From Rhodoferax sp. (GTDB lineage: Bacteria; Pseudomonadota; Gammaproteobacteria; Burkholderiales; Burkholderiaceae_C), in the NCBI GenBank assembly GCA_013791765.1, contig VMTC01000136.1, forward strand, positions 1-43,728: a stretch of 43,728 bases of DNA. The letters run 5' to 3'. Position 1 is the stretch's first letter, and the number at the start of each line of letters is the position of its first letter. The notes below the pieces were generated by a model. It was not told the DNA's origin. It ran no database searches and saw only the letters and a program-made list of their open reading frames with translations. Below, piece after piece: positions 1-43,680 of this stretch. Made by a program: the position numbers and the translations under genes.

Positions 1-1
1 A

Positions 2-235
2 TTGAACGTCTTGAAACCACACCTACAAACAACCCTATCGACTCTGCTGGAGTCCAACACCAGCCACCGCCAGATTGAACGTGTCACCGGAATTGATCGA
101 AAGACCATCCGCACCTATGCCAAACGCATGGAGGAGCGCAAGGTCAAGTCAAATTCCTCCGGGGTGGCCACCGGCACATCCGAGCCCACACCCGATCAAA
201 TTCCCCCACCCCGGCCACCGGCTCCGGCCAAGTTA
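2..235 (+). pseudogene. istA: IS21-family transposase IstA, N-terminal fragment
   Basis: The first ~75 codons match the N-terminus of IS21-family IstA: MNVLKPHLQTTLSTLLESN followed by a helix-turn-helix segment (RQIERVTGIDRKTIRTY) and the linker ending in IPPPRPPAPAK. The integrase catalytic core that should follow is absent, because from about position 235 the DNA is antisense to hsdM. The reading frame begins with TTG at the window edge, so the true start and the IS end may lie just outside. IstB is not seen. The remnant is inferred to be a relic of the rearrangement that removed the 3' end of hsdM. The junction is placed only approximately (215-245). Confidence 0.75.
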
Positions 236-1234
236 ACGACCTCCACCTTCGCCAAACAAGGTGCCATCGGGCAGCACCAGCGCGGCGCGGCCATTGACTT
301 TGAGAATGTGTTTGATCAGCACCAGAAACAAATCGGCCGTCTCTTTGGTGCGCACGTCGCTGGGGAAGCCCTGCTCGATGCCCGGCTCTTCGATGCCGCC
401 AAAGGGCGGGTTGGTGAGCACCACGTCCACCCGGTCGGCAGCGCCCACATCGCGCAGCGGGCGGCTCAGGGTGTTGCCGTGCAGGATGTTGCTGGGCACC
501 TCGACGCCGTGCAGCAGTAGGTTGGTGACGCACAGCATGTGCGGCAGCTGCTTCTTCTCGACGCCGCGAATGCTCATTTGCAGCACGGCCTCTTGCGCGG
601 TGTTGTTGACTTGGCTGCGCATGTGCTCGATGGTGCAGACCAGAAAACCGCCGGTGCCGGTGGCCGGGTCGAGCACCACTTCGCCCAGTTGCGGGTTGGC
701 CCTATCGACCATGAACTGGGTGACTGCGCGCGGGGTGTAGAACTCGCCCGCGTTGCCGGCGCTTTGCAAGTCTTTGAGAATCTTCTCGTACAGGTCGTTG
801 AACTGGTGCCGCTCAGCCTGGCGGTTGAAGTCGATGGCGTTGAGCTTGGTAATGACCTGGCGCAGCAGGTGGCCGCTTTTCATGTAGTTGTAGGCGTCTT
901 CAAACACGCCGCGCCCCACAAAGCCGCGCGGGTTGCGCTGGGCGTCACCGGGCAGGTTTTTGAGGCTGACGAAGAGCTGTTTGTCCACAAACTCCAGCAG
1001 CTCGTCGCCGGTGACGCCCTCGGCATCGGCCGCCCAGTGGCGCCAGCGCATGGCCTCCGGGATCGGGCTGGTGTAGTGGTCGCGGGTGAGTTCCAGCTCC
1101 TCCTCCAGCGCGTCAAACACTTTGAGGAACAAGAGCCAGGTGAGCTGCTAGATGCGCTGCGCGTCGCCGTCGAGCCCGCTGTCCTGGCGCATGACGTCTT
1201 GGATGGATTTGATAACGCCGGATAGGTTGGACAT
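233..1234 (-). pseudogene. hsdM: Type I restriction-modification DNA methyltransferase subunit HsdM, broken
   Basis: Reading on the minus strand from ATG at 1234 gives MSNLSGVIKSIQDVMRQDSG, then a TAG codon at 1150-1148 where the family normally has a residue before QLTWLLFLK. After it the frame continues uninterrupted as a good HsdM: SAM-binding motif DPATGTGGF and catalytic motif NPPFG are both present. The protein stops shortly after LPDGTLFGEG, where normal HsdM continues for well over 100 residues. The 3' part has been replaced by the istA fragment. A single-base change of GAG to TAG would explain the stop. The gene lies downstream of the hsdR remnant on the same strand, and no hsdS specificity gene is visible. 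The methylase is almost certainly non-functional. Confidence 0.88.
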
Positions 1235-1258
1235 GGAGATGCAGTTTTATATAAGAAA

Positions 1259-1303
1259 TTGGGCTCTAGCCCACGTCGATACTGCGGTAACAGCTATCAA
1301 TAT
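1259..1303 (+). repeat. Dispersed 45-nt element, copy A
   Basis: The head TTGGGCTCTAGCCC is at 1259-1272 and the tail AGCTATCAATAT starts at 1292. Exactly 25 nt run from the end of AGCCC to the end of AGCTAT, as in the seven other copies in this window. It lies between the hsdR and hsdM remnants. Confidence 0.8.
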
Positions 1304-1327
1304 GCGAGTATTTTGGCAAACGCGGCG

Positions 1328-2037
1328 TCAGCCACCGGCGGACCCGGGAGCATACAGGGCGCGCTCCAGCGCTTGCAGGGCGCCGAGGTACTGGGCGCGC
1401 CCGCCAAAGCTGTTGACGAGTTCGCTGGCGCTGCCCATATGGGTGAAGGGCTGCACCCGCAGCACGGCGTCACTCTCGATGGTGGCGATGCCTTCGTCGG
1501 CGTATTTGTCGAGCAGTGCGTCCATCACCTTGCGGGCTACCGGGCCGTACTGGGTGAAGATGTCGCGCCTTTTTAACGCGGCTGGCGCGCTCGCGCCGGG
1601 TCAGCGGCGGCTGGTTGTAGGCGCCACAACTCGGCGGGGCTGGGGAATTCGTCGAGCGTGAGGTTTTGCTCCAGCACGCCATCAGCCCGCGTGGCGTCAC
1701 GAAACACAAAGCCGTCGCCGTTGCTGGCGAAACTGAAGGGCACGTCCAGCAACTGGGCGTAGTGGATGGCCTGTTGAGTGCCTGCGCTCATGGAAAGCCG
1801 TGCTTTTTTGGCTTCCACCACGGCGATCGGGATGTTGGGTTTAAAGAACAGGGCGTAATCGGCAAACAGCACCGTGTTCTGGTCCCGCTGCGCACTTTTG
1901 CCCCGCACCACCACGCGGCCCGCGCGCAAGGGGTATTGGGCATAAATTTGATCCATGCCATTCCAGCCCGCCTTTTGCATGGCCGGCCGGATGAACTTGT
2001 CATAAATGTCGCTTTCAGACAGCTTATTTTTATTCAA
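1328..2037 (-). pseudogene. hsdR: Type I restriction endonuclease subunit HsdR, internally deleted
   Basis: The frame starts at TTG 2037, preceded by GGAGG six nt upstream, and encodes the N-terminal nuclease domain of EcoEI-type HsdR (MNKNKLSESDIYDKFIRPAM). The PD-(D/E)xK residues appear as ADYALFF and VVEAKK. After AELWR (about 1622) the sequence jumps to the extreme C-terminus (YNQPPLTRRERASRVK). The whole helicase/translocase part, normally several hundred residues, is gone. A further one-base insertion in a run of five T (1570-1574, plus strand) shifts the frame before DIFTQYGPVARKV and MDALLDKYADEG, which run to the stop at 1328. Without motor domains the product cannot restrict DNA. 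It is immediately upstream of the hsdM remnant. Confidence 0.87.
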
Positions 2038-2201
2038 CCGATGCCTCCAGCTTCAAGCGCATTATCCGGCAAGCTTTTGGGTGCACTTCATCGACTCGGC
2101 CACAGCTGACGCGTCAGAATGAGGGCCCAGGGGGTTCTTTTTCAGTGCAAAGGCACTGGTCTGCAACTGATTTGATGATGAAATTCGAGGCAAGCGACGC
2201 G

Positions 2202-3095
2202 CTACCCCGTAATGATGGGCCGCAGCGCATCGACCTCATCGACCAGAAAGTCAAACAGCGCCGCCACGCGCGGCGTGCGTCGTAACGCCGGTGTGGTGAG
2301 TACGCGCCAGATGCGGGCCAGTTCCGGGATCGGACCGAGCACCCGCACCAGGTCAGGCTCGGTATCACCCAGCGCGGTCGGCAAGGCCGCCAGGCCCACG
2401 CCTGCTCGCACCGAATAGATCAGGCCGAGCACACTGTTGTTGCGCGCCACGACATGCGCGCCGGGGGCCACTTGTTGCAGCCATTGGGTTGCACGGTGAT
2501 TGGGCATGGTGTCGTCAAAACCCACCCAGTCGTGGCGCTCCAAATCTTCCACGCGATCGGGCTGACCGCGCCGGGCAATGTACTTCGGGCTGGCGTAGAC
2601 CGCCCAAAGCGAATCCCCGACCTTGCGTCCGACCAGCGCGTTGTCCTGCGTGTCGCCCGAGCGCAGGGCGATGTCCACCTCCCCTTTGGCAAAGTCAAGG
2701 TACTTGTCACTCATCACAAATTCCACTTCCAGCCCAGGGTAGCGCGCCCGAAACCGCTCAAGCAGCGTCGAATTGGTGATGCGGTACATCAGCGGTTCCG
2801 GACAGGTCAGGCGCACCACCCCCGTGACCTCGCGGTGAAAGGTCTCGACATGCTGGGTCAATGCCGCCACCGATTGCTCAACCTGCTGAGCGAGGGGCAG
2901 CAATTGCTCTCCAAAAGTCGTCAGACGATATCCGCTGGGGTGGCGCTGTACCAGCGCCTGCCCCAAGCACCGTTCCAACTCGGCCAGCCGCCGTTGGACG
3001 GTGGACTGGTTGACCTGCAGCGCGCGGCTGGCCGCCGTGGTGCTTTTGTGACGCGCCACCGCCAGCAGGTATTTGAGGTCGTTCCAGTCGAACAT
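2202..3095 (-). CDS. LysR-family transcriptional regulator
   Basis: This is a 297-residue LysR-type regulator. Residues 1-60 form the winged HTH (MFDWNDLKYLLAVARHKST, then AASRALQVNQSTVQRRLAELE). The rest is a periplasmic-binding-protein-like effector domain with the usual segments TCPEPLMYRITN and GVGLAALPTALGD. I chose the ATG at 3095 because LysR proteins begin a few residues before the HTH; a longer frame upstream is out of family character. It is divergent from a SAM-dependent methyltransferase gene with a 131-bp shared intergenic region, the classical arrangement for a LysR regulator and its target. The effector is unknown. Confidence 0.9.
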   Translation of the reverse strand: MFDWNDLKYLLAVARHKSTTAASRALQVNQSTVQRRLAELERCLGQALVQRHPSGYRLTTFGEQLLPLAQQVEQSVAALTQHVETFHREVTGVVRLTCPEPLMYRITNSTLLERFRARYPGLEVEFVMSDKYLDFAKGEVDIALRSGDTQDNALVGRKVGDSLWAVYASPKYIARRGQPDRVEDLERHDWVGFDDTMPNHRATQWLQQVAPGAHVVARNNSVLGLIYSVRAGVGLAALPTALGDTEPDLVRVLGPIPELARIWRVLTTPALRRTPRVAALFDFLVDEVDALRPIITG

Positions 3096-3226
3096 GGCGG
3101 GCGATGGGGGTGAAGTTATGCGTTTGTGCGGCCCCATTATGCAAGGCTGCGGCTTGCGGCACCCACATGCACTGCCTAAACTGGCAGCGCCATATTGCAC
3201 GAACAAACACACCGAAGGAGCCCGCC

Positions 3227-4102
3227 ATGACAGCAGTTTCCACCGACACCGTCAGCCCCGATCGCCAGGATTTCAAGATCGCGGTGCGCGAGCAATGGGA
3301 CCGTTCGGCAGCAGGCTGGAACTCGCACACCCCGGAGATTCGCGCCTGGCTGCGCCAGGCCAGCGAGGCCATGCTGGACATGGCAGGCGTCAAGCCCGGT
3401 GCTGCGGTGCTGGATGTAGCCGCTGGTGCCGGTGACCAGACGCTCGACATTGCAAAGCGCGTAGGCCCGGCCGGCCGCGTGCTGGCCACCGACCTGTCTC
3501 CCGCGATATTGGCGCTGGCCGACATAAACGCCTGCCGCGCCGGCTTTGGCAACGTCCAGACGCTGGTCGCAGACGGCGAGGCGCTTGCCGTGCCTCCCAG
3601 CAGCTTTGATGCCGCCGTCTGCCGGCTGGGCCTGATGTTTTTTCCCGACCCGCTGCAAGGCCTGCACAGCATGTATCGGGCCTTGCGGCCGGGCGGGGGC
3701 ATCTGCACCCTGGTGTTTTCTCGGCCCGAGCGCAACCCCTGCTTGGGCATGCTGATGGGCACCGCGCTCAAACACGCGGGGCAAGCGCCACGCGATCCGT
3801 TCCAGCCGGGCGGCCTGTTGAGCCTGGGCAAACCGGGCCTGGCCGATGCGCTATTCCAGACGGCGGGCTTTCGCAACGTCGCGAGCACGGCCCTGGATGC
3901 ACCCTTTCAGCTGCCCTCGGCGCGCCATTACCTTGACTTCGTTCGTGCGTCGGCCAGCCCGATCCAGCAAATTTTGGGGCGACTCAGTGCCGAAGCGGCC
4001 GATGCCGCCTGGGCCGAGATGGAGCAACGACTGGGCGTCTTCACGACCGCCGACGGCTGGATTGGCCCGAACGAACTGCTGCTGACGGCGGCGCAGCGCT
4101 GA
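3227..4102 (+). CDS. Class I SAM-dependent methyltransferase (UbiE/Methyltransf_11-like)
   Basis: This is a 291-residue Rossmann-fold methyltransferase. Motif I (VLDVAAGAGDQT) is at residues 61-72, an acidic ribose-binding residue sits in VLATDLSPA, motif II/III is in LVADGEALAVPPSSFDAAVCR, and the post-motif LRPGGGICTLVF follows. The ATG at 3227 is preceded by AAGGAG with good spacing; an upstream in-frame extension has no ribosome-binding site. The substrate cannot be read from sequence. The fold resembles UbiE/ArsM-type small-molecule methyltransferases, but ArsM cysteines are not evident. The divergent LysR gene is its probable regulator (inference from position). Confidence 0.85.
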   Translation: MTAVSTDTVSPDRQDFKIAVREQWDRSAAGWNSHTPEIRAWLRQASEAMLDMAGVKPGAAVLDVAAGAGDQTLDIAKRVGPAGRVLATDLSPAILALADINACRAGFGNVQTLVADGEALAVPPSSFDAAVCRLGLMFFPDPLQGLHSMYRALRPGGGICTLVFSRPERNPCLGMLMGTALKHAGQAPRDPFQPGGLLSLGKPGLADALFQTAGFRNVASTALDAPFQLPSARHYLDFVRASASPIQQILGRLSAEAADAAWAEMEQRLGVFTTADGWIGPNELLLTAAQR

Positions 4103-4303
4103 CGCCTTAGCATTGACTGAGCCCGCCTTCAACCCTGGCTGGAGCACGGAGGCGCGTTGAAACCTAAAAGAGATGCGAGTGGTTCTGGCTTCTGGCAACT
4201 GCTGCCCCTGATCGCCCGCGAACCTGAGGGTGGATCAGGCCTGGCCGTTCCCGGCGCTGAAAGCCAGATGGCGCGACGTGGGCTGCTGACCGGCAGGCTT
4301 GAA

Positions 4304-4732
4304 CTAGCTGCTGATGTAATTGGTCAGCTGCGAAATCGTTTGCTGCTGCTCGGCGATGATGTCGTCCATCAGGTCGCGGATCGAGATCAGGCCCAAAACC
4401 TCATCGCCATCGAGCACCGGCAAGTGGCGAATCTTCTTCTGGCTCATCAACACCATGCAGGCACCGGCCTCGGTGCTGGGCGTGACTGTGATGACATCGC
4501 GGGTCATGATGTCGGCAACCACCGTTTCTTTGGAGTTCTTACCCTGCAGCGCTACCTTGCGGGTGTAGTCACGCTCGGAGACCACTCCGACTAGTTTGCC
4601 GTTCTCCATCACAGTCATCGCACCTACGCCATAGTCAGCCAACAACTGGAGTGCCTCAAAAACACTGACGGAAGGACTGACCTGGTAAATCGCTGTACTA
4701 CGATTTTTTAACAATTCCGAAACGGGCTTCAT
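4304..4732 (-). CDS. CBS-domain-pair protein
   Basis: This 142-residue protein consists essentially of two CBS motifs (Bateman module). The first is about residues 8-65 (VFEALQLLADYGVGAMTVME, GVVSERDYTRKV). The second is about 75-130 (DIMTRDVITVTPSTEA, IRHLPVLDGDEVLGLISIRDL). Both carry the [V/L]G(V/L)[V/I]S.RD signature that contacts adenosine ligands. There is no attached enzymatic or transport domain, so it is a stand-alone adenine-nucleotide sensor of unknown partner. The start at ATG 4732 is supported by GGAG in CTGGAGTTTTG upstream. It is divergent from the diguanylate cyclase gene across a 479-bp gap. Confidence 0.9.
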   Translation of the reverse strand: MKPVSELLKNRSTAIYQVSPSVSVFEALQLLADYGVGAMTVMENGKLVGVVSERDYTRKVALQGKNSKETVVADIMTRDVITVTPSTEAGACMVLMSQKKIRHLPVLDGDEVLGLISIRDLMDDIIAEQQQTISQLTNYISS

Positions 4733-5211
4733 CAAAACTCCAGTTAATTTGTTGACATGAGAATCGCAGTGTAAACAAACTGCTGTGCAAGGCAATAGAC
4801 AGCGACCCCAAGCGCGACAGCGCGCCTGGCCAGCAAGATGCCAGCGCCAGCGAACGCACACCAGGGCGAAGCAAACGCAAGCGATTGCGAACAGCAACGA
4901 GCAACGAGCGGGCATCAGGTAAGCTCTGTATTTGATAGCTATTCAGGCAATTTAGACGCGGGCTAGAGCCCAAAATAGCTCAAATTCTCTTGAATTTTCA
5001 GGCTTGGCGAAAAGGCGCTTTCAAGTGACTCCAAGGTTTGGAGCCCTGCTGAGGTCTTTGCCGGAGCTTTCCTTCGGACGATCGCATCCAAATGGCTGGC
5101 GCGTGGACTCACCTCAGATTGAGATGAACACGGCCATCATTCATGGTTACATTTAGGTCATGTTCCCGCTGACTCTAGTGAGACAGCCACTTTTGATGGC
5201 CCAAATACCTC
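4733..5211. other. Gene-free stretch between the CBS gene and the diguanylate cyclase gene
   Basis: No credible coding frame was found. It contains the dispersed repeat copy B (4929-4973) and otherwise presumably the divergent promoters. No riboswitch, tRNA or convincing terminator was recognised. Confidence 0.6.
4929..4973 (-). repeat. Dispersed 45-nt element, copy B
   Basis: On the minus strand the head TTGGGCTCTAGCCC (4973-4960) is identical to that of copy A. The tail AGCTATCAAATA ends the element, with the same 25-nt spacing from AGCCC to the end of AGCTAT. Confidence 0.8.
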
Positions 5212-6786
5212 ATGACTGCCAAGAAACCATTTGAAATCGCGCGCGAGACGCTCAAACAAATCACGGCGCGCAAGATGGCGCCAACGCCCATCAACTACCA
5301 GGCCATCTACAACGAAGTGGCGGGACTGGTCAGCGAGCCGCCCTTTCCCGCTGACCGCTTGCGTGACATTGCGCAGGCTCTGCCGATCAAAACACCGGGG
5401 CAACAAAGGCAGCGCGGTCTGCTGGACTCCGCCATCGGACAACTCAATTGGGATGGCGTGAAGAGCGCGCTGATGGCCTATGGGGGCTTCAGTCCGCCCG
5501 CCGCTGAACCCGCCAAGGTTGGCGCCGTGACTGGCTCGCCCGCCCACGCGCCCGCGCCGGTCGCCAGTGCGTCAGGCGACGCGGGCGCAATCGCGCTGAG
5601 CTTTGAATTCTTCCAGCAAATGGCGCGTCTGATCGAGTACGCGCTGCCTGCCCTGGGCACCGATGATGAACGCTTCAATGAGCAGACCCAGACCTTGCTC
5701 AAGGCCCTGCGCCAGCCCGGCGCTGATTTGCTGCTTCTTAAAGCGATGCTCGCCAGCTTCAGCGACCGACTCTCCTTTGCCGCCGAAGACCAAGCCGAGA
5801 TCAAGGTCACGCTGCTCAAGCTCTTGCACCTGATCATCGAGAACATAGGGGAGCTCAGCTTGGATGACCGCTGGCTCAAGGGCCAGATTGAGGCCTTGCT
5901 GACAGCCTCAACGCCACCACTGACCTTGCGCCGCCTTGACGATGTGGAGCGGCGCCTCAAAGACGTTATCTTCAAGCAGACCGAGGCCAAGGGCCGGGCC
6001 CTGGAGGCGCAGGAAGACATGCGCCAAATGCTGGCGACCTTCATTGAGCGGCTTTCGCAAATGACCGAGTCCACCAGCGCCTACCATGGCAAGCTGGAAG
6101 AAAATGCGCGCCTGATCGAACAGGCCAAGACCCTGGCTGAAATTGCACCGGTCTTGAAAGAGGTGGTCGGTGCGACCCGCACCATCGCGCACGACAGCTT
6201 GAGTGCGCGCGACGAGCTGCGCGGTATGCGCGAGAAGGCGCTAACTACAGAGGCAGAACTTGCCAAATTGCATCTGGAACTTGACCGCGTCAGCGCGCAG
6301 GCGCGCCACGACCCGCTCACCGGCGCCCTCAATCGCAAGGGGCTGGAAGAAGCGGTGGAGCGCGAGGTCTCCAGCGTGCGGCGCAAGGACACGCCGCTGT
6401 GCATGGCGCTGCTCGACATTGACAACTTCAAGGCGCTTAACGACCGGCTCGGTCACACCACCGGCGATGAAGCGCTCGCCCATTTGGCGGCGGTGACACG
6501 CGAAGTCATGCGCCCACAAGACACGCTGGCTCGCTATGGCGGCGAAGAATTTGTGGTTCTAATGCCTGACACCGCCCTGGGCAATGGCATTGAAGCCATG
6601 ACCCGCTTGCAACGCGAACTGACTAAACGTTTCTTTTTGGCTGGCACCGAGAAGGTTCTGATTACCTTCAGCGCTGGCGTGGCGCAGCTGGTCGCAGACG
6701 AAAGCGGTCAGAGCGCCATCAAGCGTGCCGACCAGGCCATGTACCTGGCCAAGCGTTCGGGCAAAAATCGCGTGTTGGCCGCCTAA
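5212..6786 (+). CDS. Diguanylate cyclase (GGDEF) with long helical N-terminal region
   Basis: This is a 524-residue cytoplasmic protein. Residues 1-90 form a conserved Burkholderiales N-terminal module (PFEIARETLKQITARKMAP). Residues ~120-370 are strongly helical with coiled-coil character (around 300-370). Residues ~375-524 form the GGDEF domain, beginning ARHDPLTGALNRKG. The active-site loop is GGEEF (443-447), a functional variant of GGDEF. An inhibitory I-site RPQD sits at 434-437, exactly five residues before it. It should therefore make cyclic di-GMP and be product-inhibited. No transmembrane segment or recognisable sensor domain is seen, so the input signal is unknown. The ATG at 5212 gives the family-typical N-terminus. 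Confidence 0.92.
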   Translation: MTAKKPFEIARETLKQITARKMAPTPINYQAIYNEVAGLVSEPPFPADRLRDIAQALPIKTPGQQRQRGLLDSAIGQLNWDGVKSALMAYGGFSPPAAEPAKVGAVTGSPAHAPAPVASASGDAGAIALSFEFFQQMARLIEYALPALGTDDERFNEQTQTLLKALRQPGADLLLLKAMLASFSDRLSFAAEDQAEIKVTLLKLLHLIIENIGELSLDDRWLKGQIEALLTASTPPLTLRRLDDVERRLKDVIFKQTEAKGRALEAQEDMRQMLATFIERLSQMTESTSAYHGKLEENARLIEQAKTLAEIAPVLKEVVGATRTIAHDSLSARDELRGMREKALTTEAELAKLHLELDRVSAQARHDPLTGALNRKGLEEAVEREVSSVRRKDTPLCMALLDIDNFKALNDRLGHTTGDEALAHLAAVTREVMRPQDTLARYGGEEFVVLMPDTALGNGIEAMTRLQRELTKRFFLAGTEKVLITFSAGVAQLVADESGQSAIKRADQAMYLAKRSGKNRVLAA

Positions 6787-6824: not shown

Positions 6825-6840
6825 TGTTTCACGTTAACCA
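6825..6840. other. parS: parS-like site (14 of 16 matches)
   Basis: The sequence TGTTTCACGTTAACCA differs from the parS consensus TGTTTCACGTGAAACA at two positions, both in the right half. It is intergenic, just before nnrU. It is weaker than the two sites in mnmG and may be fortuitous or a low-affinity ParB site. Confidence 0.4.
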
Positions 6841-28708: not shown

Positions 28709-29524
28709 CTATTTCCCCCCGAAGAGCCGCTTCAGAAACCCTTGTTTGGGTGGATCGATAAAGCGCATGGGCTTGTCTTCACCCAGAAAACGATCAATCA
28801 CGTCCTTGTAGGCTTCTGACACGTCGCTGCCCTTCATGTGCACCGCCGGCACACCTTGGTTGGAAGCCTGCAGCACTGCTTCACTTTCGGGAATGACGCC
28901 GATGAGCTTGATGCGCAGAATATCCTGAATGTCTTCCAGCGACAGCATGTGGCCTTGGTCAACCCGGGCCGGGTTGTAGCGGGTAATGAGCAGGTGCTCC
29001 TTGATCGGCTCCAAGCCCTGCATGGCACGGCGGGTCTTGCTCGACAGCATACCCAGAATGCGGTCGGAGTCGCGCACGGACGAGACTTCGGGATTGGTGA
29101 CCACCAGCGCTTCGTCGGCAAAGTGCATCGCCATCAGCGCACCAGTTTCAATGCCTGCGGGTGAATCGCAGATGATGTATTCAAAGTCCATCGCGGCCAG
29201 GCCATTAAGCACTTTCTCAACACCGTCTTGCGTCAACGCGTCTTTGTCGCGGGTTTGCGAGGCCGCCAGCACATAAAGGTTGTCGGACTGCTTGTCCTTG
29301 ATCAGCGCCTGGTTCAGGTTGGCTTCGCCGTGAATGACGTTGATCAGGTCGTACACCACGCGGCGCTCGCAACCCATGATCAGGTCCAGATTGCGCAGTC
29401 CCACGTCAAAGTCGATCACAGCCGTCTTGTGCCCACGCAAGGCCAAGCCCGCTGCGAAGCTGGCACTGGTAGTGGTCTTACCCACGCCACCCTTGCCGGA
29501 AGTCACCACAATAATTTTTGCCAT
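28709..29524 (-). CDS. minD: Septum site-determining ATPase MinD
   Basis: This is a 271-residue ParA/MinD-type ATPase with a deviant Walker [10 protein letters not shown] (10-18) carrying the signature lysine, switch residues [16 protein letters not shown] and [11 protein letters not shown], and a C-terminal amphipathic membrane-targeting helix ([11 protein letters not shown]). It recruits MinC to the membrane and is displaced by MinE. ATG 29524 gives the exact family start [13 protein letters not shown]; an upstream in-frame start at 29542 is less likely. It sits 70 bp after minC. Confidence 0.96.
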
Positions 29525-29594
29525 GGGAAAACTGTCTTTCACGTTAATTCAAAAAAATAGGAGCGCTGCGGTCACGCGGGTGGCGGCGCTGCTC

Positions 29595-30368
29595 TCAGGG
29601 GTTCAGTGCTTCAAACAGCAACTTATCCTGCCCATCATCGCTCAAGCGCACTTGCGCTGGCTTGCCCTGGATGTCAGCTGCCAGCGGATTTTCACTGGTG
29701 CGGTAGACGCCGGCAATCGAGATCAACTCGGGCTCCAGACACAAAGAAAAGATGCGGGCCTGGGTGTTGCCGCTGGCGCCTGCCATGGCTTTGCCCCGCA
29801 AAGGTGCATAGACATGAATATTGCCATCAGCGACGACTTCGGCGCCTTGATTGACCATGGCCAGCACCACCAGGTCAGCGCCGCGGGCATAAATTTTTTG
29901 ACCGGAGCGCAACGGCTTGTCAATCACCAGGGTCGCAGCACCTGGCAGGGCACGGCGTTCTTGCGTGGCAACCGGTTGCGGGAGGGCCTCCACCGGCACC
30001 GGGCGCACCCGAGGCAGATCAAGCGGCGCCTCAACCAAACCCACCGCCAACGCAGCTTGCATCCAGACGGCGCTGGCACCGCGCACCGCCACTGCCACCA
30101 GGCAACAGGCCCGAAGCGTCTGTAGCAGGGGTTTCAAGTCCTGCACGGGGCTGTCTGTGGGCAGGGGTGAGAAATCGAGCACCAGCGGGTCATGGTCAAA
30201 AAACGCCGGATTTTCACCCTCGGGGCCAAATTGCCTCAATAGGTCAGCCGCCAGCAAGTCCCAGTCAGTGGTCTTGAGCAGCAAGGCCACGAGCGGGAGC
30301 TGAGCGCTCTTTATTTCAAAAGACACCAGTGCTTGGTTGGACGGAGGGGCTGCAGGAGAAACAGACAT
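29595..30368 (-). CDS. minC: Septum site-determining protein MinC
   Basis: This is a 257-residue FtsZ assembly inhibitor. The N-terminal domain (~20-120: SFEIKSAQLPLVALLLKTTD) and a variable proline-rich linker (~125-150) precede the C-terminal beta-helix. The latter carries RSGQKIYARGADLVVLAMVN, GAEVVADGNIHVYAPLRGKA and a terminal PELISIAGVYRTSENPL. It is first in the minCDE operon. Upstream lies the origin-like gap, so the min promoter must be within ~30370-30550. Confidence 0.94.
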   Translation of the reverse strand: MSVSPAAPPSNQALVSFEIKSAQLPLVALLLKTTDWDLLAADLLRQFGPEGENPAFFDHDPLVLDFSPLPTDSPVQDLKPLLQTLRACCLVAVAVRGASAVWMQAALAVGLVEAPLDLPRVRPVPVEALPQPVATQERRALPGAATLVIDKPLRSGQKIYARGADLVVLAMVNQGAEVVADGNIHVYAPLRGKAMAGASGNTQARIFSLCLEPELISIAGVYRTSENPLAADIQGKPAQVRLSDDGQDKLLFEALNP

Positions 30369-31111
30369 GGAAAAAACAAAGGCTGAAGGACTAGAACTGT
30401 TAAAGCAAGGGAGAACGATTTCAAAAGCAGCTTGGGTAGCTCAGCGTTTGATTGAGAAACCGGGTGAGGCGCGGATGAATTTTACTTGATTGGTTTTTTT
30501 CGGCCTTTACTTCTTGCGCCGTGACGGCGGTGGCGCTGGATCAAGCCGGTTTTTTTTCAATGGCCGCAATTTTCTTCTTTCACTTTATCTTCTATCTTTC
30601 TACTGTTTATAAATAGTAGTAGTAGATAGAGGCGGCGTCGGTCTGTGGACAAGCCGATTTATATAAATTAAATCAATCACTTGAATCGCTTTGATAGATG
30701 TGCGTGACTGCGCTTTTGCGCTGTACCCAAAATCTGAACAACTCAAGCAAGGTGAAAAATGCTGTGGATAACTTGATCGTTATGCCAATATTGTGCACAG
30801 CTTTATCCTTTGACAGAACGTGCGAATGCCAGGCTGGTTGGTGTTGAAGATGAAAGGGATTTGTCGCGCGGCCTCAGACGACTAAAGTGGCTGCCCATTG
30901 CTTGATGTGCAATGACTGCGCGACGCCATGGGTGAATTGGCATCAAGGCCGGGTTGGCATGGCGCCAACCGACCTGTCGCCTTGAACTTATGGCGGCCAG
31001 CTTGGGCCTGGCGGCCAGGTTGCACCGCCATTTTTTTTAAGGATACTCATAGCCTGATCTGAATCGGCAGACGCTCGCCGCACAGCTCATCAGCTGTTGC
31101 TGGACGAGAAT
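30369..31111. other. Gene-free stretch between minC and ccmI
   Basis: No frame with convincing coding character on either strand. The middle holds the oriC-like elements. The left part (30369-30550) presumably contains the min promoter. The right part (30820-31100) contains GC-rich inverted segments such as GGCGCCAACC and GGCGGCCAG/CTGGCGGCC near 30990-31020, but nothing identified. Confidence 0.6.
30560..30815. other. oriC: Candidate chromosomal replication origin (oriC)
   Basis: Within an 807-bp gene-free stretch the order on the plus strand is: a pyrimidine-rich tract (30570-30603), AT-rich TGTTTATAAA, four TAG trinucleotides (30614-30625, the DnaA-trio pattern read 3'-GAT-5'), a GC-rich cluster GGCGGCGTCGG (30631-30641), and a DnaA box TGTGGACAA (30644-30652, one mismatch). 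An AT-rich segment (30658-30680) comes next, then a perfect DnaA box TGTGGATAA (30763-30771) and TTGTGCACA (30791-30799, one mismatch). This is the layout of the basal unwinding system described for bacterial oriC. parS sites lie ~12 kb away. No dnaA gene is in the window. Confidence 0.65.
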
Positions 31112-31159
31112 TAATAAAAAAAAAAGCTGCTAGCCCAGGTGCATCCTGGGCTAGCAGCT
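31112..31159 (-). terminator. Strong rho-independent terminator of the ccm operon
   Basis: A perfect 15-bp stem is formed by AGCTGCTAGCCCAGG (31125-31139) and CCTGGGCTAGCAGCT (31145-31159), with a 5-nt loop. On the minus strand it is followed by a run of ten T. It lies 17 nt after the ccmI stop. The arms are part of repeat copy H. Confidence 0.9.
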
Positions 31160-31175: not shown

Positions 31176-32576
31176 TTAAGGTTTAGCTTGCAGGCCTAAC
31201 CCCCCTTTGGCCCGCGCGTCAGCAATTTCCGATTGCACCATTGCTGCATCATTGGACCCGGGTGGCAGCACGGTGAGTACCTTTTCCCAATGGGACACGG
31301 CTTGGGCGTAGTCGGCACGCCGGTACGCAGCGGTACCGGCCATCATCAGAGCGGTCGGGTGATTGGGGTCCAGTGCCAATGCCTTGTTCACCAAGGTCAG
31401 CGTACGGCCTTCAATCTTGTTATCAGCGCGCATGGCCAATACATCGGCGTACTGGGTTAACAGGTCGGGGTCGCCATCCACCAACTTGCCGGCCTTGGCA
31501 TACGCTTGCTCAGCCTCGACCAGACGCCCCTGTGTCTTGTATGTACGCGCCAGTCGAGCCCAACCCGTTAAGTCATCCGGTGTGCTCTTGAGACGTTCGG
31601 CGAGGCGGTCCACCATCTGGTTGACCATTTCCGGCGTCATGGCGGCGGCGGCGGCAGGATCGACGGGAGGCAGTTCGCCCGCTCGGGTATCTTGGGTGCC
31701 CGGGTTGGTGGCTGGCATTGGTGCGGATGTTTCTGCCGCGGGCAAACCGGCCCGCACCCGCGCTTCGGAGATGTCGGTGGCCACTTGCAACGCATCGGGT
31801 GAACCAGGCTCCAGTAGTGTTAGTAAGGTTTCCCAATACACGACGGCCTCTTTGTAGTCGAACCTGCGATAGGCGGCCACGCCGGCCATCATCAGACCCA
31901 TGGGGTGCTGCGGGTCCAGGCTCAAGGCTTTGTTGACGAGTTCAAGCGGTCTACCTTCTATGTTGTTGTTCGCTCGAACGGCCAACAGGTCGGCGTAGTC
32001 CACCATCAGATCTGGCTCCGTGTTGAGCAAGTCGCCGGCTTTCAAAAAGGCCTGCTCGGCCTCGGCAAAGCGGCCCATGACCTTGTAGGAGCGCGCTAGC
32101 ATGGCCCAACCCGTGGGGTTGTCAGGATTGGCCCTCAAGCGATCGGCCAGGATGTCGACCATCTTCATGGCCTGGTCTTCGTTGCTTTTTTGCGCGGCCA
32201 CCGGATCAATGGCCGCAGGTTCACCCAGCCACCAGTACATGCCGCCTGCCCCTATTGGCATCAGCAACACGATGACGGCTGCTGTAAATCGACCGGCCCA
32301 GAAACTGGCGCCGCTGGTGTGGTGCACTGGCGCGGGCGCCTCGGTGTCATCCAACAGGCGCAACTGTAGTTCGTCGCGGGTCGCCTCACAGTCCTCCTGA
32401 CTGATGGCGCCGCGTGCCAGGTCACGGTCCAGCGCTTCCAGTTGATCGCGGTAGATGGCTGCGTTCAGGCGCTGGCTCGAGACACCGGCTGGTGGCGGCG
32501 GGCGCAGCAACGGGCGCACCACCCATACCAATGCCAACAGTGTCAACAACACTGCGATGGAAATAAAGACGCTCAT
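31176..32576 (-). CDS. ccmI: Cytochrome c maturation protein CcmI with duplicated TPR module
   Basis: This is a 466-residue protein. The membrane-anchored N-terminus (SVFISIAVLLTLLALVWVV) is followed by a cytoplasmic loop with RLNAAIYRDQLEALDRDLARG and a second helix (~94-116). Then comes a periplasmic TPR region present twice: residues ~130-275 and ~310-460 are clearly homologous (VDILADRLRANPDNPTGWAM versus VDRLAERLKSTPDDLTGWAR). A Pro/Ala-rich linker joins the copies. CcmI binds the C-termini of apocytochromes and presents them for haem ligation. The usual protein has one such module. It is last in the ccm operon, overlaps ccmH by 4 nt and is followed by a strong terminator. Confidence 0.9.
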   Translation of the reverse strand: MSVFISIAVLLTLLALVWVVRPLLRPPPPAGVSSQRLNAAIYRDQLEALDRDLARGAISQEDCEATRDELQLRLLDDTEAPAPVHHTSGASFWAGRFTAAVIVLLMPIGAGGMYWWLGEPAAIDPVAAQKSNEDQAMKMVDILADRLRANPDNPTGWAMLARSYKVMGRFAEAEQAFLKAGDLLNTEPDLMVDYADLLAVRANNNIEGRPLELVNKALSLDPQHPMGLMMAGVAAYRRFDYKEAVVYWETLLTLLEPGSPDALQVATDISEARVRAGLPAAETSAPMPATNPGTQDTRAGELPPVDPAAAAAMTPEMVNQMVDRLAERLKSTPDDLTGWARLARTYKTQGRLVEAEQAYAKAGKLVDGDPDLLTQYADVLAMRADNKIEGRTLTLVNKALALDPNHPTALMMAGTAAYRRADYAQAVSHWEKVLTVLPPGSNDAAMVQSEIADARAKGGLGLQAKP

Positions 32577-40960: not shown

Positions 40961-43006
40961 ATGCTTTATCCCCAATTTTTCGATGTGATTGTTGTCGGCG
41001 GCGGCCATGCCGGAACCGAGGCCGCGCTGGCGGCTGCTCGCATGGGTTGCAAGACGCTGCTGCTCAGTCACAACATTGAAACGCTGGGACAGATGAGTTG
41101 CAACCCGTCGATTGGCGGTATCGGAAAAGGCCATCTGGTCAAGGAGGTCGACGCTTTGGGCGGCGCGATGGCGGCGGCGACCGATGAGGCGGGCATCCAG
41201 TTCCGCATACTCAACTCCAGCAAAGGTCCGGCGGTGCGTGCCACGCGCGCGCAGGCGGATCGGGTGCTGTATAAGGCGGCGATTCGCCACCGGCTGGAAA
41301 ACCAGCCCAAGCTGTGGCTGTTCCAGCAGGCGGTGGATGACTTGATGGTTGAGGGTGATCGCGTGGTCGGTGCGGTGACGCAGGTCGGCATCAAGTTTCG
41401 CGCCAAAGCCGTGGTGCTCACTGCGGGCACCTTTCTGGACGGCAAGATCCATGTGGGCTTGAACAACTACGCGGCGGGGCGCGCAGGGGACCCCCCGGCA
41501 GTTTCTCTGAGCGCACGGCTGAAGGAGTTGAAGCTGCCGCAAGGGCGGCTGAAGACCGGTACGCCGCCACGTCTGGACGGCCGTTCGATTGACTTCACTC
41601 AATGTATTGAACAGCCCGGAGATGGCATGCCGGGCGGGATGAGCCCGGTGGTGCCGGTGTTCAGCTTCATGGGCCGGGTGGCGCAACACCCAGCGCAAAT
41701 GTCGTGCTGGATGACGCACACCAACGAGCGCACCCATGACATCATCCGCAGCGGCTTTGACCGCAGCCCGATGTTCACCGGAAAGATCGAAGGCGTGGGG
41801 CCGCGCTATTGCCCCAGCGTGGAAGACAAAATCAACCGCTTTGCCGACAAGGACAGCCACCAGATTTTTCTAGAACCCGAAGGGCTGACGACGAACGAGT
41901 ATTACCCCAACGGCATCTCCACCAGCTTGCCCTTTGACATTCAGTACGCGCTGGTGCGCTCCATGCCCGGGCTGCAGAACGCCCATATCCTGCGGCCCGG
42001 GTATGCCATCGAGTACGACTACTTCGATCCGCAGCAGCTCAAAAGCAGTTTCGAGACCAAGGCCATCAAGGGTCTGTTCTTTGCGGGTCAGATCAACGGA
42101 ACCACCGGCTATGAAGAAGCGGCGGCGCAAGGCTTGTTCGCGGGTGTCAATGCGGCGCTGCAGGCTGGTGCCAGGACCGCCTGGCAACAAGACACCTGGT
42201 TGCCGGCACGTGACGAGGCCTATCTGGGCGTGCTGGTGGACGACCTAATCACCAAAGGCGTGAGCGAGCCCTATCGCATGTTCACCAGCCGGGCCGAGTT
42301 CCGGCTGCAACTGCGCGAAGACAATGCCGATATGCGTTTGACCGAGATGGGGCGCCAACTGGGCTTGGTCGATGACCTGCGCTGGCAAGCCTTCAACCGC
42401 AAGCGCGACGCTGTTTCACGTGAAACAGAGCGTCTGCGCTCACTCTGGGTCAGCCCCAAGAATCTGGCGGCGCCTGAGTCGGAGCGGGTCTTGGGTAAGG
42501 TGATTGAGCATGAATACAGTCTGGCGGATTTGTTGCGCCGACCGGATGTGAACTACGCAGGCCTGATGTCGCTGGACGGTGGCAAGTATGTCAGTGCAGA
42601 GTTGAATGCGGCTGTTTCACGTGAAACACAGGCTTCTGCGCTGCCAGATGCCGAAGCTGTTTTTGCCGCCGTGGTGATTGAGCAGGTCGAGATTGTGGCC
42701 AAGTACTCGGGCTACATTGACCGACAAAAAGAAGAGGTCGGCCGAGCCGCACACTATGAAAATCTAAAATTGCCGCTGGAGCTGGACTATTTGCAGGTGT
42801 CGGCCTTAAGTTTTGAAGCTCGGCAAATGCTGAGCAAGTACCGGCCAGAAACACTGGGTCAGGCCTCGCGCATGTCGGGCATCACGCCTGCGGCAATCTC
42901 TTTGCTGCTGGTGCACTTGAAAAAGAGTAACTTCAAGGGCTTTGCTGAAGTGGGCCGAGTTGCCGCGACCGCTGTGTCGGGTTCAGTTGAGCAGGTGTCC
43001 ATCTGA
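40961..43006 (+). CDS. mnmG: tRNA uridine-5-carboxymethylaminomethyl modification enzyme MnmG (GidA)
   Basis: This is a 681-residue FAD enzyme. The dinucleotide-binding motif [10 protein letters not shown] starts at residue 13, followed by [18 protein letters not shown], the [12 protein letters not shown] loop, [13 protein letters not shown] and the second FAD motif [19 protein letters not shown]. The C-terminal MnmE-binding domain ends [17 protein letters not shown]. With MnmE it makes cmnm5U34 on tRNAs. It is ~50 residues longer than the E. coli protein (629). One extra stretch, around [19 protein letters not shown], contains a parS site. No strong Shine-Dalgarno precedes ATG 40961; a C6T7 tract does. 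It overlaps rsmG by one base. Confidence 0.96.
42412..42427. other. parS: parS site 1 (perfect palindrome) inside mnmG
   Basis: TGTTTCACGTGAAACA matches the ParB-binding consensus at all 16 positions. It is read in the mnmG frame as part of AVSRET. Confidence 0.9.
42613..42628. other. parS: parS site 2 (perfect palindrome) inside mnmG
   Basis: TGTTTCACGTGAAACA is a second perfect copy, 201 bp after the first and in the same codon phase, again encoding AVSRET. Confidence 0.9.
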
Positions 43007-43680
43007 TGCGTGAGCTGGAATCGGCTTTGCGCAATGGCTTGGCGGATCTTTCGCTGGCGTTGGACGATCGGCAAATTGGTCTGTTGCTCGACTATCTGGC
43101 GTTGATTGGAAAATGGACCCAAGTCTACAACCTGACATCGGTGCGTGACCCGGTTGAAATGCTGACGCACCACTTGCTGGACAGTCTGGCGGTGGTGCCT
43201 GCGCTGCGCCGGCAGTTGGCCGAGTTGCCAGTGCCGGCGCCGGGTGAGGATGCCGCCAAGTTGCGATTGCTCGATGTGGGTTCCGGCGCCGGCTTGCCTG
43301 GGGTGGTGATAGCCATTTGCTGCCCCGAGATCATGGTTGACTGTGTCGATACCGTGGCAAAGAAAGTAGCGTTTATTCGCCAGGCTGCGGCCACCCTGAG
43401 GCTGGCCAATCTGCACGGCCTGCATGCCCGGGTGGAAAGCTTGACGGAGCCGTACCAGGTGATCGGCGCGCGCGCCTTTGCGTCGCTGGTGGACTTCACC
43501 CGGCTGTCCATGGCTGCGCTGGCGCCGCAGGGCATCTGGTTGGCCATGAAGGCCAAGAACCCTGCGGATGAGATTGCTGGACTGCCCGCGCAGGTGCAGG
43601 TGTTTCACGTGGAACGGCTTTTGGTTCCCGGCCTGCATGCCGAGCGCTGCATTGTCTGGATGCGGGCTGTAGCGGCCTGA
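43006..43680 (+). CDS. rsmG: 16S rRNA (guanine-527-N7)-methyltransferase RsmG (GidB)
   Basis: This 224-residue SAM-dependent methyltransferase has an N-terminal helical region ending in WTQVYNLTSVRDP, then HHLLDSLAVVPAL, motif I LLDVGSGAGLPGVVIAI (~88-104), VDCVDTVAKKVAFIRQAA, and ARVESL and ARAFASLVDF in the catalytic half. It makes m7G527 in 16S rRNA; loss confers low-level streptomycin resistance in other bacteria. ATG 43006 overlaps the mnmG stop (TGATG). The 3' part contains a near-perfect parS (43601). parA-parB would be expected shortly after the window end (inference). Confidence 0.95.
   Translation: MRELESALRNGLADLSLALDDRQIGLLLDYLALIGKWTQVYNLTSVRDPVEMLTHHLLDSLAVVPALRRQLAELPVPAPGEDAAKLRLLDVGSGAGLPGVVIAICCPEIMVDCVDTVAKKVAFIRQAAATLRLANLHGLHARVESLTEPYQVIGARAFASLVDFTRLSMAALAPQGIWLAMKAKNPADEIAGLPAQVQVFHVERLLVPGLHAERCIVWMRAVAA
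43601..43616. other. parS: parS site 3 (14 of 16 matches) inside rsmG
   Basis: TGTTTCACGTGGAACG differs from the parS consensus at two right-arm positions. It is read in the rsmG frame as VFHVER. Confidence 0.7.

Follow-up and report, generated by a model that had tools for sequence, protein, structure and literature searches.

The intergenic region between minC and ccmI of a Rhodoferax-like bacterium was found to hold a conserved element of about 240 bp that is very probably the chromosomal replication origin (oriC), its binding by DnaA, unwinding and firing being predicted. A preliminary description of the DNA had already proposed an origin with a DnaA-trio module. This reading is upheld because the element is conserved within the genus and the family, because the same model that recognises it lands just past dnaA in other genera, and because it is collinear with the oriC of Escherichia coli. 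Established at the level of sequence are the elements with their order, orientation and conservation, their homology to E. coli oriC and to dnaA-adjacent elements of other genera, and the presence of a single copy in the draft genome. Judged from these features, the element is an oriC of known, ordinary architecture, in which a DnaA-trio module is combined with an E. coli-like R1-IHF-R4 layout. The start of replication has thus very probably been located for Rhodoferax and several related genera.

The window, i.e. the whole stretch of 43,728 nucleotides that was analysed, is a complete contig (C86, about 60% GC) of a draft genome of 136 contigs and 4.17 Mb that is rated 100% complete. Its genus label rests on named relatives, those of MinC being mostly Rhodoferax, other Burkholderiales and Comamonadaceae. 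The neighbours minC and ccmI, as named in the preliminary description, were recovered with TIGR01222 and TIGR03142 respectively (Table 1). Its mention of nearby parS sites and mnmG was equally borne out, since mnmG-rsmG and the parS-type sites are situated 10-13 kb from the element and the two perfect sites inside mnmG lie about 11.7 kb away, a closeness that speaks in favour of an origin. With up to three mismatches allowed, four parS-type sites were found in the window compared to 0.12 expected; those with two mismatches are located in rsmG (43601-43616) and far to the left in the window (6825-6840). An RNA element was also considered for the stretch and dropped, as neither an Rfam match at gathering score nor a tRNA was found in it.

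Table 1. Features of the predicted origin and its neighbourhood, with positions in the window
Feature	Position	Strand	Basis or remark
Whole conserved element, predicted oriC	30579..30816	+	model R1 match, E 9.2e-43 (this sequence is in the training set of model R1)
AT- and pyrimidine-rich stretch, probable DNA-unwinding element	30560..30613	+	30560-30612 70% AT
DnaA-trio tract, (TAG)x4 + ATAG	30614..30629	+	TAG core conserved in relatives
Spacer AGGCGGCGTCGGTC, 14 nt	30630..30643	+	GC-rich in the window, not GC-rich generally
DnaA box TTGTCCACA, reads TGTGGACAA on +	30644..30652	-	E. coli R1 counterpart by alignment
IHF-type site AATCAATCACTTG	30671..30683	+	perfect WATCAANNNNTTR
Weak DnaA-box-like TGTGCGTGA	30699..30707	-	TGT invariant in alignment
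Conserved CTGAACAAC / CTGGATAAC motif	30734..30742	+	alignment; near E. coli ACAACTC, R2 region
Perfect DnaA box TTATCCACA, TGTGGATAA on +	30763..30771	-	found in 57/59 aligned elements (count biased upward, see text)
Inverted DnaA box TTGTGCACA, one mismatch	30791..30799	+	E. coli R4 counterpart by alignment
minC, left neighbour of element	29595..30368	-	TIGR01222, 173 bits vs cut-off 95
minD	28709..29542	-	TIGR01968 above cut-off
minE, putative, 86 aa	28444..28704	-	ORF, by position alone
ccmI, right neighbour of element	31176..32576	-	TIGR03142 above cut-off
mnmG	40961..43006	+	holds two perfect parS-type 16-mers, 42412-42427 and 42613-42628
Two-way terminator-like hairpin between predicted oriC and ccmI	31125..31159	.	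15 pairs, symmetric, T-runs on both strands

The element shows the hallmarks of an origin, i.e. a cluster of DnaA boxes adjacent to an AT-rich stretch, the predicted unwinding element. Of the 14 DnaA boxes with at most one mismatch in the window, four fall within 30604-30799: one perfect and two one-mismatch boxes within 200 bp, and in addition TTATAAACA at 30604. The perfect box (30763) and the one-mismatch box (30791) had been pointed out before and are both present, and the box at 30644 is one mismatch off the TTATNCACA family. A scan in 10-bp steps places the start of the AT-richest 256-bp segment of the contig at 30551; base composition changes from 76% AT at 30575-30628 to 25% AT at 30628-30643. 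Between the boxes at 30644 and 30763 lies the sequence at 30671, an IHF-type site by its fit to WATCAANNNNTTR, which we take to be the IHF consensus and of which the window holds two perfect occurrences, counting both strands. In the 59-row alignment described below, a match of this type was found in 34 elements and a loosened TTGTGCACA box pattern in 57, motif counts that are biased upward because the rows were picked by profile.

In the model of the basal origin unwinding system (BUS), DnaA bound to the box on the trio side nucleates a filament along the trio strand, by which the DNA is opened (PMC6669920, PMC8287927); trios have the consensus 3'-GAT-5' with a conserved middle A and are called where at least three of them occur near a DnaA box (PMC8287927). 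Here, four TAG trios and a subsequent ATAG precede the box at 30644, and trios (3'-GAT-5'), spacer and DnaA box follow each other in the same order as described for Bacillus subtilis (PMC6669920, PMC8287927). The preliminary description had claimed the exact BUS order of AT-rich DNA, TAG x4, a GC-rich cluster and a DnaA box; the AT-rich DNA, the trios and the box are indeed found in that order, but conservation does not extend to the GC-rich cluster: spacer GC averages 46% and reaches 85% at its richest (a spacer was recognised in 56 of the 59 aligned elements). The element further differs from the published system in its spacer, which is rather long at 14 nt from the last TAG (within ATAG, one base out of phase) or 18 nt from the in-phase tract, the published values being a peak at 10-13 and an upper limit of 16 for searches (PMC8287927), and in having one clear box beside the trios, whereas a tandem pair is described in B. 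subtilis (PMC6669920, PMC8287927). Moreover, on the far side of that box it carries an IHF-type site and an R4-like box, unlike the B. subtilis BUS as presented in those texts.

It is on this far side that the likeness to E. coli becomes apparent. When the element profile was compared with the annotated E. coli oriC (NC_000913.3, 3925744-3925975, extended with the R4 box just beyond), both were collinear over R1-IHF-R4 with a score of 15.2 bits (E 1.7e-5 in 7 kb, corresponding to about 0.01 when scaled to the whole genome); none of 500 dinucleotide shuffles scored as high and none exceeded 3.5 bits. The shared order is R1 (TGTGGATAA), IHF site, weak sites, TTTGGATAAC block and inverted R4, the IHF-type site of the window being aligned with the E. 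coli ATCAACAACCTGG stretch after R1. Thus, the E. coli-type succession of R1, IHF site and inverted R4 is found in the element. Both origins have mnmG nearby, which is adjacent to E. coli oriC (situated in the mnmG-mioC gap) and about 10 kb away from the element, and E. coli oriC likewise does not lie beside dnaA. They differ in their neighbours, which are minC and ccmI for the element, and in the four perfect TAG trios, which the compared E. coli stretch lacks. The presence of a DnaA-trio motif and an E. coli R1-IHF-R4 layout in one origin helps to link two models of origin opening.

In the E. coli model, bending by IHF between R1 and the right-hand boxes unites two groups of DnaA. By analogy, DnaA would bind the strong boxes at 30763 and 30791 together with the box at 30644, and IHF would bend the DNA at 30671 so that the left and right DnaA groups are brought together. 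An ATP-DnaA filament is then predicted to extend from the 30644 box over the TAG trios on one strand and to open the AT-rich stretch to their left, where the helicase would be loaded.

Taken singly, these motifs are short, and AT-rich DNA favours TAG and box-like words, such that a chance cluster in AT-rich intergenic DNA has to be weighed. We consider this hardly credible and in fact already refuted by the conservation of the element over genus and family. The run TAGTAGTAGTAG (30614-30625) is the sole match in 43.7 kb, even with one mismatch allowed, where shuffled sequences lead to expect 0.01. A profile built solely from 30 elements of other genera (from 19 of 20 loci at E<1e-10, chosen by similarity to the first profile) finds 30596-30808 with 116.6 bits (E 6.6e-34), compared to a best score of 9.7 bits on 50 shuffled windows.

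Conservation within the genus was mapped with a profile made from 55 element copies, which were gathered by a TAG x3 rule from the window and 79 loci fetched with MinC. This profile gave no match in 17 of the 100 loci L008-L107 (L017, L021, L024, L025, L026, L045, L067, L080-L086, L090, L091 and L101), of which L024, L067 and L101 carry little or no sequence upstream of minC. A 59-row alignment (A1) then yielded a sequence-only model (R1), which matches 84 of 89 genus genomes at E<=1e-5 and leaves five without a match at that threshold. MinC was matched in 65 of these 89 genomes. In 58 of the 65, the element lies upstream of minC at a distance of 69-295 bp, as measured between match edges, and without exception on the opposite strand. 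Five of the remaining seven have element and minC on separate contigs, one (G359) has them 119 kb apart and one (G377) lacks a match to model R1; a further 20 genomes have a model R1 match and no MinC match. In G359, a complete genome of 3.0 Mb, the sole match is weak (E 5.5e-10) and lies about 1 Mb from dnaA, and the origin of this genome may be of a quite different kind.

Beyond the genus, a model R1 match (E<=0.001) was obtained for 294 of 300 family genomes, covering all 115 sampled genera, with no match in the other six at that threshold. The chromosomal place of the element was measured in 40 near-complete family genomes (39 in a single contig, G348 in three contigs), each of which has a match at E<=1e-5 and one match to the DnaA C-terminal domain. 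In 12 of these 40, among them G123, G132 and G166, the best match is centred 286-496 bp beyond the centre of the DnaA C-terminal domain, just past the 3' end of dnaA, a classical location of origins at which dnaN would be expected. The same model thus finds the element of the window and those dnaA-adjacent elements of other genera, from which the former differs in its displaced chromosomal place. In 27 genomes the nearest match is 17-301 kb away from dnaA, and the remaining one, G010, has one copy just upstream of dnaA; among all these distances, that of G273 rests on an assumed chromosome length. Displacement from dnaA is therefore the rule in this family, and two earlier suppositions, that oriC adjoins dnaA in most Burkholderiales and that the present displacement is exceptional, do not hold for it. 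The element adjoins minC in eight of the 40 genomes, belonging to five genera (g1, g38, g83, g124 and g125), whereby the divergent minC of G072 and G251 was recognised with TIGR01222. Among the displaced genomes, no shared neighbour gene other than minC was found in the 20 regions inspected, whose neighbourhoods are diverse.

As had been remarked in the preliminary description, no dnaA was found in the window, and this holds because the contig ends; the gene is probably not far off. The dnaA of this genome is on a different contig (C80), followed by putative dnaN and gyrB as judged by sequence and gene order, so that adjacency to dnaA is not seen. The closest near-complete relative searched (G358; DnaA 93% and MinC 84% identical) carries on a contig of 4.71 Mb the DnaA match from base 4, minC at 39.7 kb and a single element at 40.7 kb, i.e. 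40.7 kb from the DnaA match. Its bases 2-5328 match contig C80, and from base 5396 onwards it matches the window from position 4303, so that dnaA-dnaN-gyrB joins on at about that position. By this synteny, dnaA probably lies past the contig end, about 37 kb to the left of the element plus the contig gap, or some 40 kb in all. If the contigs are joined alike, we infer that the junction holds at least 4.3 kb extra compared to G358. Positions 1-4302, which have no counterpart where gyrB meets the rest of the window sequence in G358, contain a partial HsdM-type N6 DNA methylase (233-1132, near the contig edge), a LysR regulator and a UbiE-like methyltransferase.

The position just upstream of minC, together with DnaA boxes and an IHF-type site, raises the question whether the element could be a site for DnaA titration, DnaA reactivation or minC regulation while the real origin lies by dnaA; datA and DARS2 also hold DnaA boxes and an IHF site. 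We regard such a role as very unlikely. Against it speak the trio tract and the AT-rich stretch, the homology both to E. coli oriC and to the element that follows dnaA in other genera, and the other displaced genomes, in which the element is kept beside unrelated genes. Moreover, the dnaA locus of this genome has no comparable element: two box-like words are present upstream of dnaA, and no profile match above chance was found there, on which grounds an origin at that place was dropped as a candidate.

Part of the GC skew does speak for the side of dnaA. As the genome of the window is a draft of 136 contigs, skew was followed over 400-kb regions of five relatives (G010, G032, G116, G251 and G276). 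The check on the skew minimum, as proposed in the preliminary description, favours the element over dnaA in two of them: the cumulative minimum of G116 falls at 5 kb from the nearer element, with dnaA at a distance of 255 kb, and that of G276, a genome of the minC type, is separated by 41 kb from the element and by 165 kb from dnaA, the latter sitting among mostly positive-skew bins. On the other hand, the steepest 50-kb step in G116 is at 260 kb, 134 kb from the element, and the step at the element of G276 is nil (0.001). The minimum of G010 falls at base 416, close to dnaA, and skew stays near zero for the following 20 kb, which hold both dnaA and the minC-side copy; the dnaA-side copy lies about 320 bp before base 1. 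This minimum fits either candidate, and the 50-kb step at the minC copy is in the 96th percentile. For G251, 145-155 kb separate the minimum from both candidates, favouring neither, and the 50-kb step at the element ranks in the 99th percentile; dnaA is too near the end for step comparison. G032, in which the minC element is 211 kb from dnaA, leans to dnaA by its steepest steps, found at 83.5 kb and, on the border of the range open to testing, at 90.0 kb, 4-10 kb from dnaA at 93.7 kb; its cumulative minimum is 77-113 kb from all three candidates and favours none. The skew is weak, mixed and partly contrary, and would by itself not settle the place of the origin.

A further question is whether the element is the sole origin unit of its chromosome. 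Only one model R1 match at E<=1 was found in the draft, and a second copy was therefore dropped as a candidate. Two or more matches do occur in 12 of the 89 genus genomes and two or three in 19 of the 40 near-complete family genomes, among which more than one copy was counted in 16 of the 20 displaced genomes that are not at minC, in two of the 12 dnaA-side genomes and in one of the eight minC-type genomes. In four of the 12 genus genomes, G014, G392, G398 and G407, the matches are on different contigs and may therefore reflect mixed bins. Near-complete minC-type genomes of the genus with several copies are G010 and, outside the 40, G357 and G378 with two each. It could thus be argued that the window holds one of at least two units and that the second is hidden in an assembly gap of the draft. 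This is improbable in view of the single match in a 136-contig draft rated complete, the single match in G358, likewise outside the 40, and the single copy in seven of the eight minC-type genomes.

Copies within one genome are 69-85% identical (seven pairs compared), whereas the median over all rows is 55.5%, a difference suggestive of homogenisation or of lineage-specific duplication. We consider it possible, without going so far as to call it probable, that the oriC of this family is a relocating and duplicating module of about 240 bp, which started on the dnaA side and is now found at several unrelated places, minC being one of them in five genera or more. About half of the near-complete chromosomes have two or three units at distances of 0.3-30 kb, and some of these may both fire or form one compound origin. 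The site in the window would then have been reached via duplication and loss of the dnaA-side copy, with G010 resembling an intermediate. This complete genome has two full oriC-like units that share 75% identity and are separated by about 15 kb; one lies immediately upstream of dnaA (C1:4,936,249-4,936,472) and the other beside minC (C1:14,538-14,765; L160 and L161). Two tandem units upstream of minC, about 0.4-1.2 kb apart and in the same orientation, were seen in L014, L018, L060, L077 and L105, and two units in opposite orientation, 20-29 kb apart, in G320 and G289. Genomes with several units are mostly those with the origin away from both dnaA and minC.

Chromosomes with predicted double origins have been described in other bacteria, in a report which noted that evidence for the use of two functional origins on one chromosome was lacking at that time (Gao 2015, PMC4403523). 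A Vibrio cholerae strain with two functional oriCs is mentioned in the paper on Ori-Finder 2022 (PMC10225481). The former cases are a parallel to the two-copy relatives and not to the window, and they differ in that they were predicted by skew, DnaA boxes and neighbour genes, whereas the copies in this family are copies of one conserved unit (PMC4403523). The relatives that carry two or three units provide a natural experiment on whether more than one oriC can be used by a bacterial chromosome.

Among the best matches listed in the open-access literature, neither an oriC beside minC nor a study of a Rhodoferax oriC was found; a DoriC prediction may exist. As far as these matches go, the place of a predicted oriC beside minC in Rhodoferax and four other genera appears to be new. 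Its consequences are practical: where an origin at dnaA is assumed, genome numbering, growth-rate estimates from coverage and skew analyses would deviate by 33-301 kb in those seven of the 40 genomes that are of the minC type with a single copy. Finally, on the ccmI side of the element, the strong hairpin at 31125-31159 may shield the origin against transcription from the ccm side; three terminator-like sites were counted in the stretch that holds it, compared to 1.7 in shuffles.
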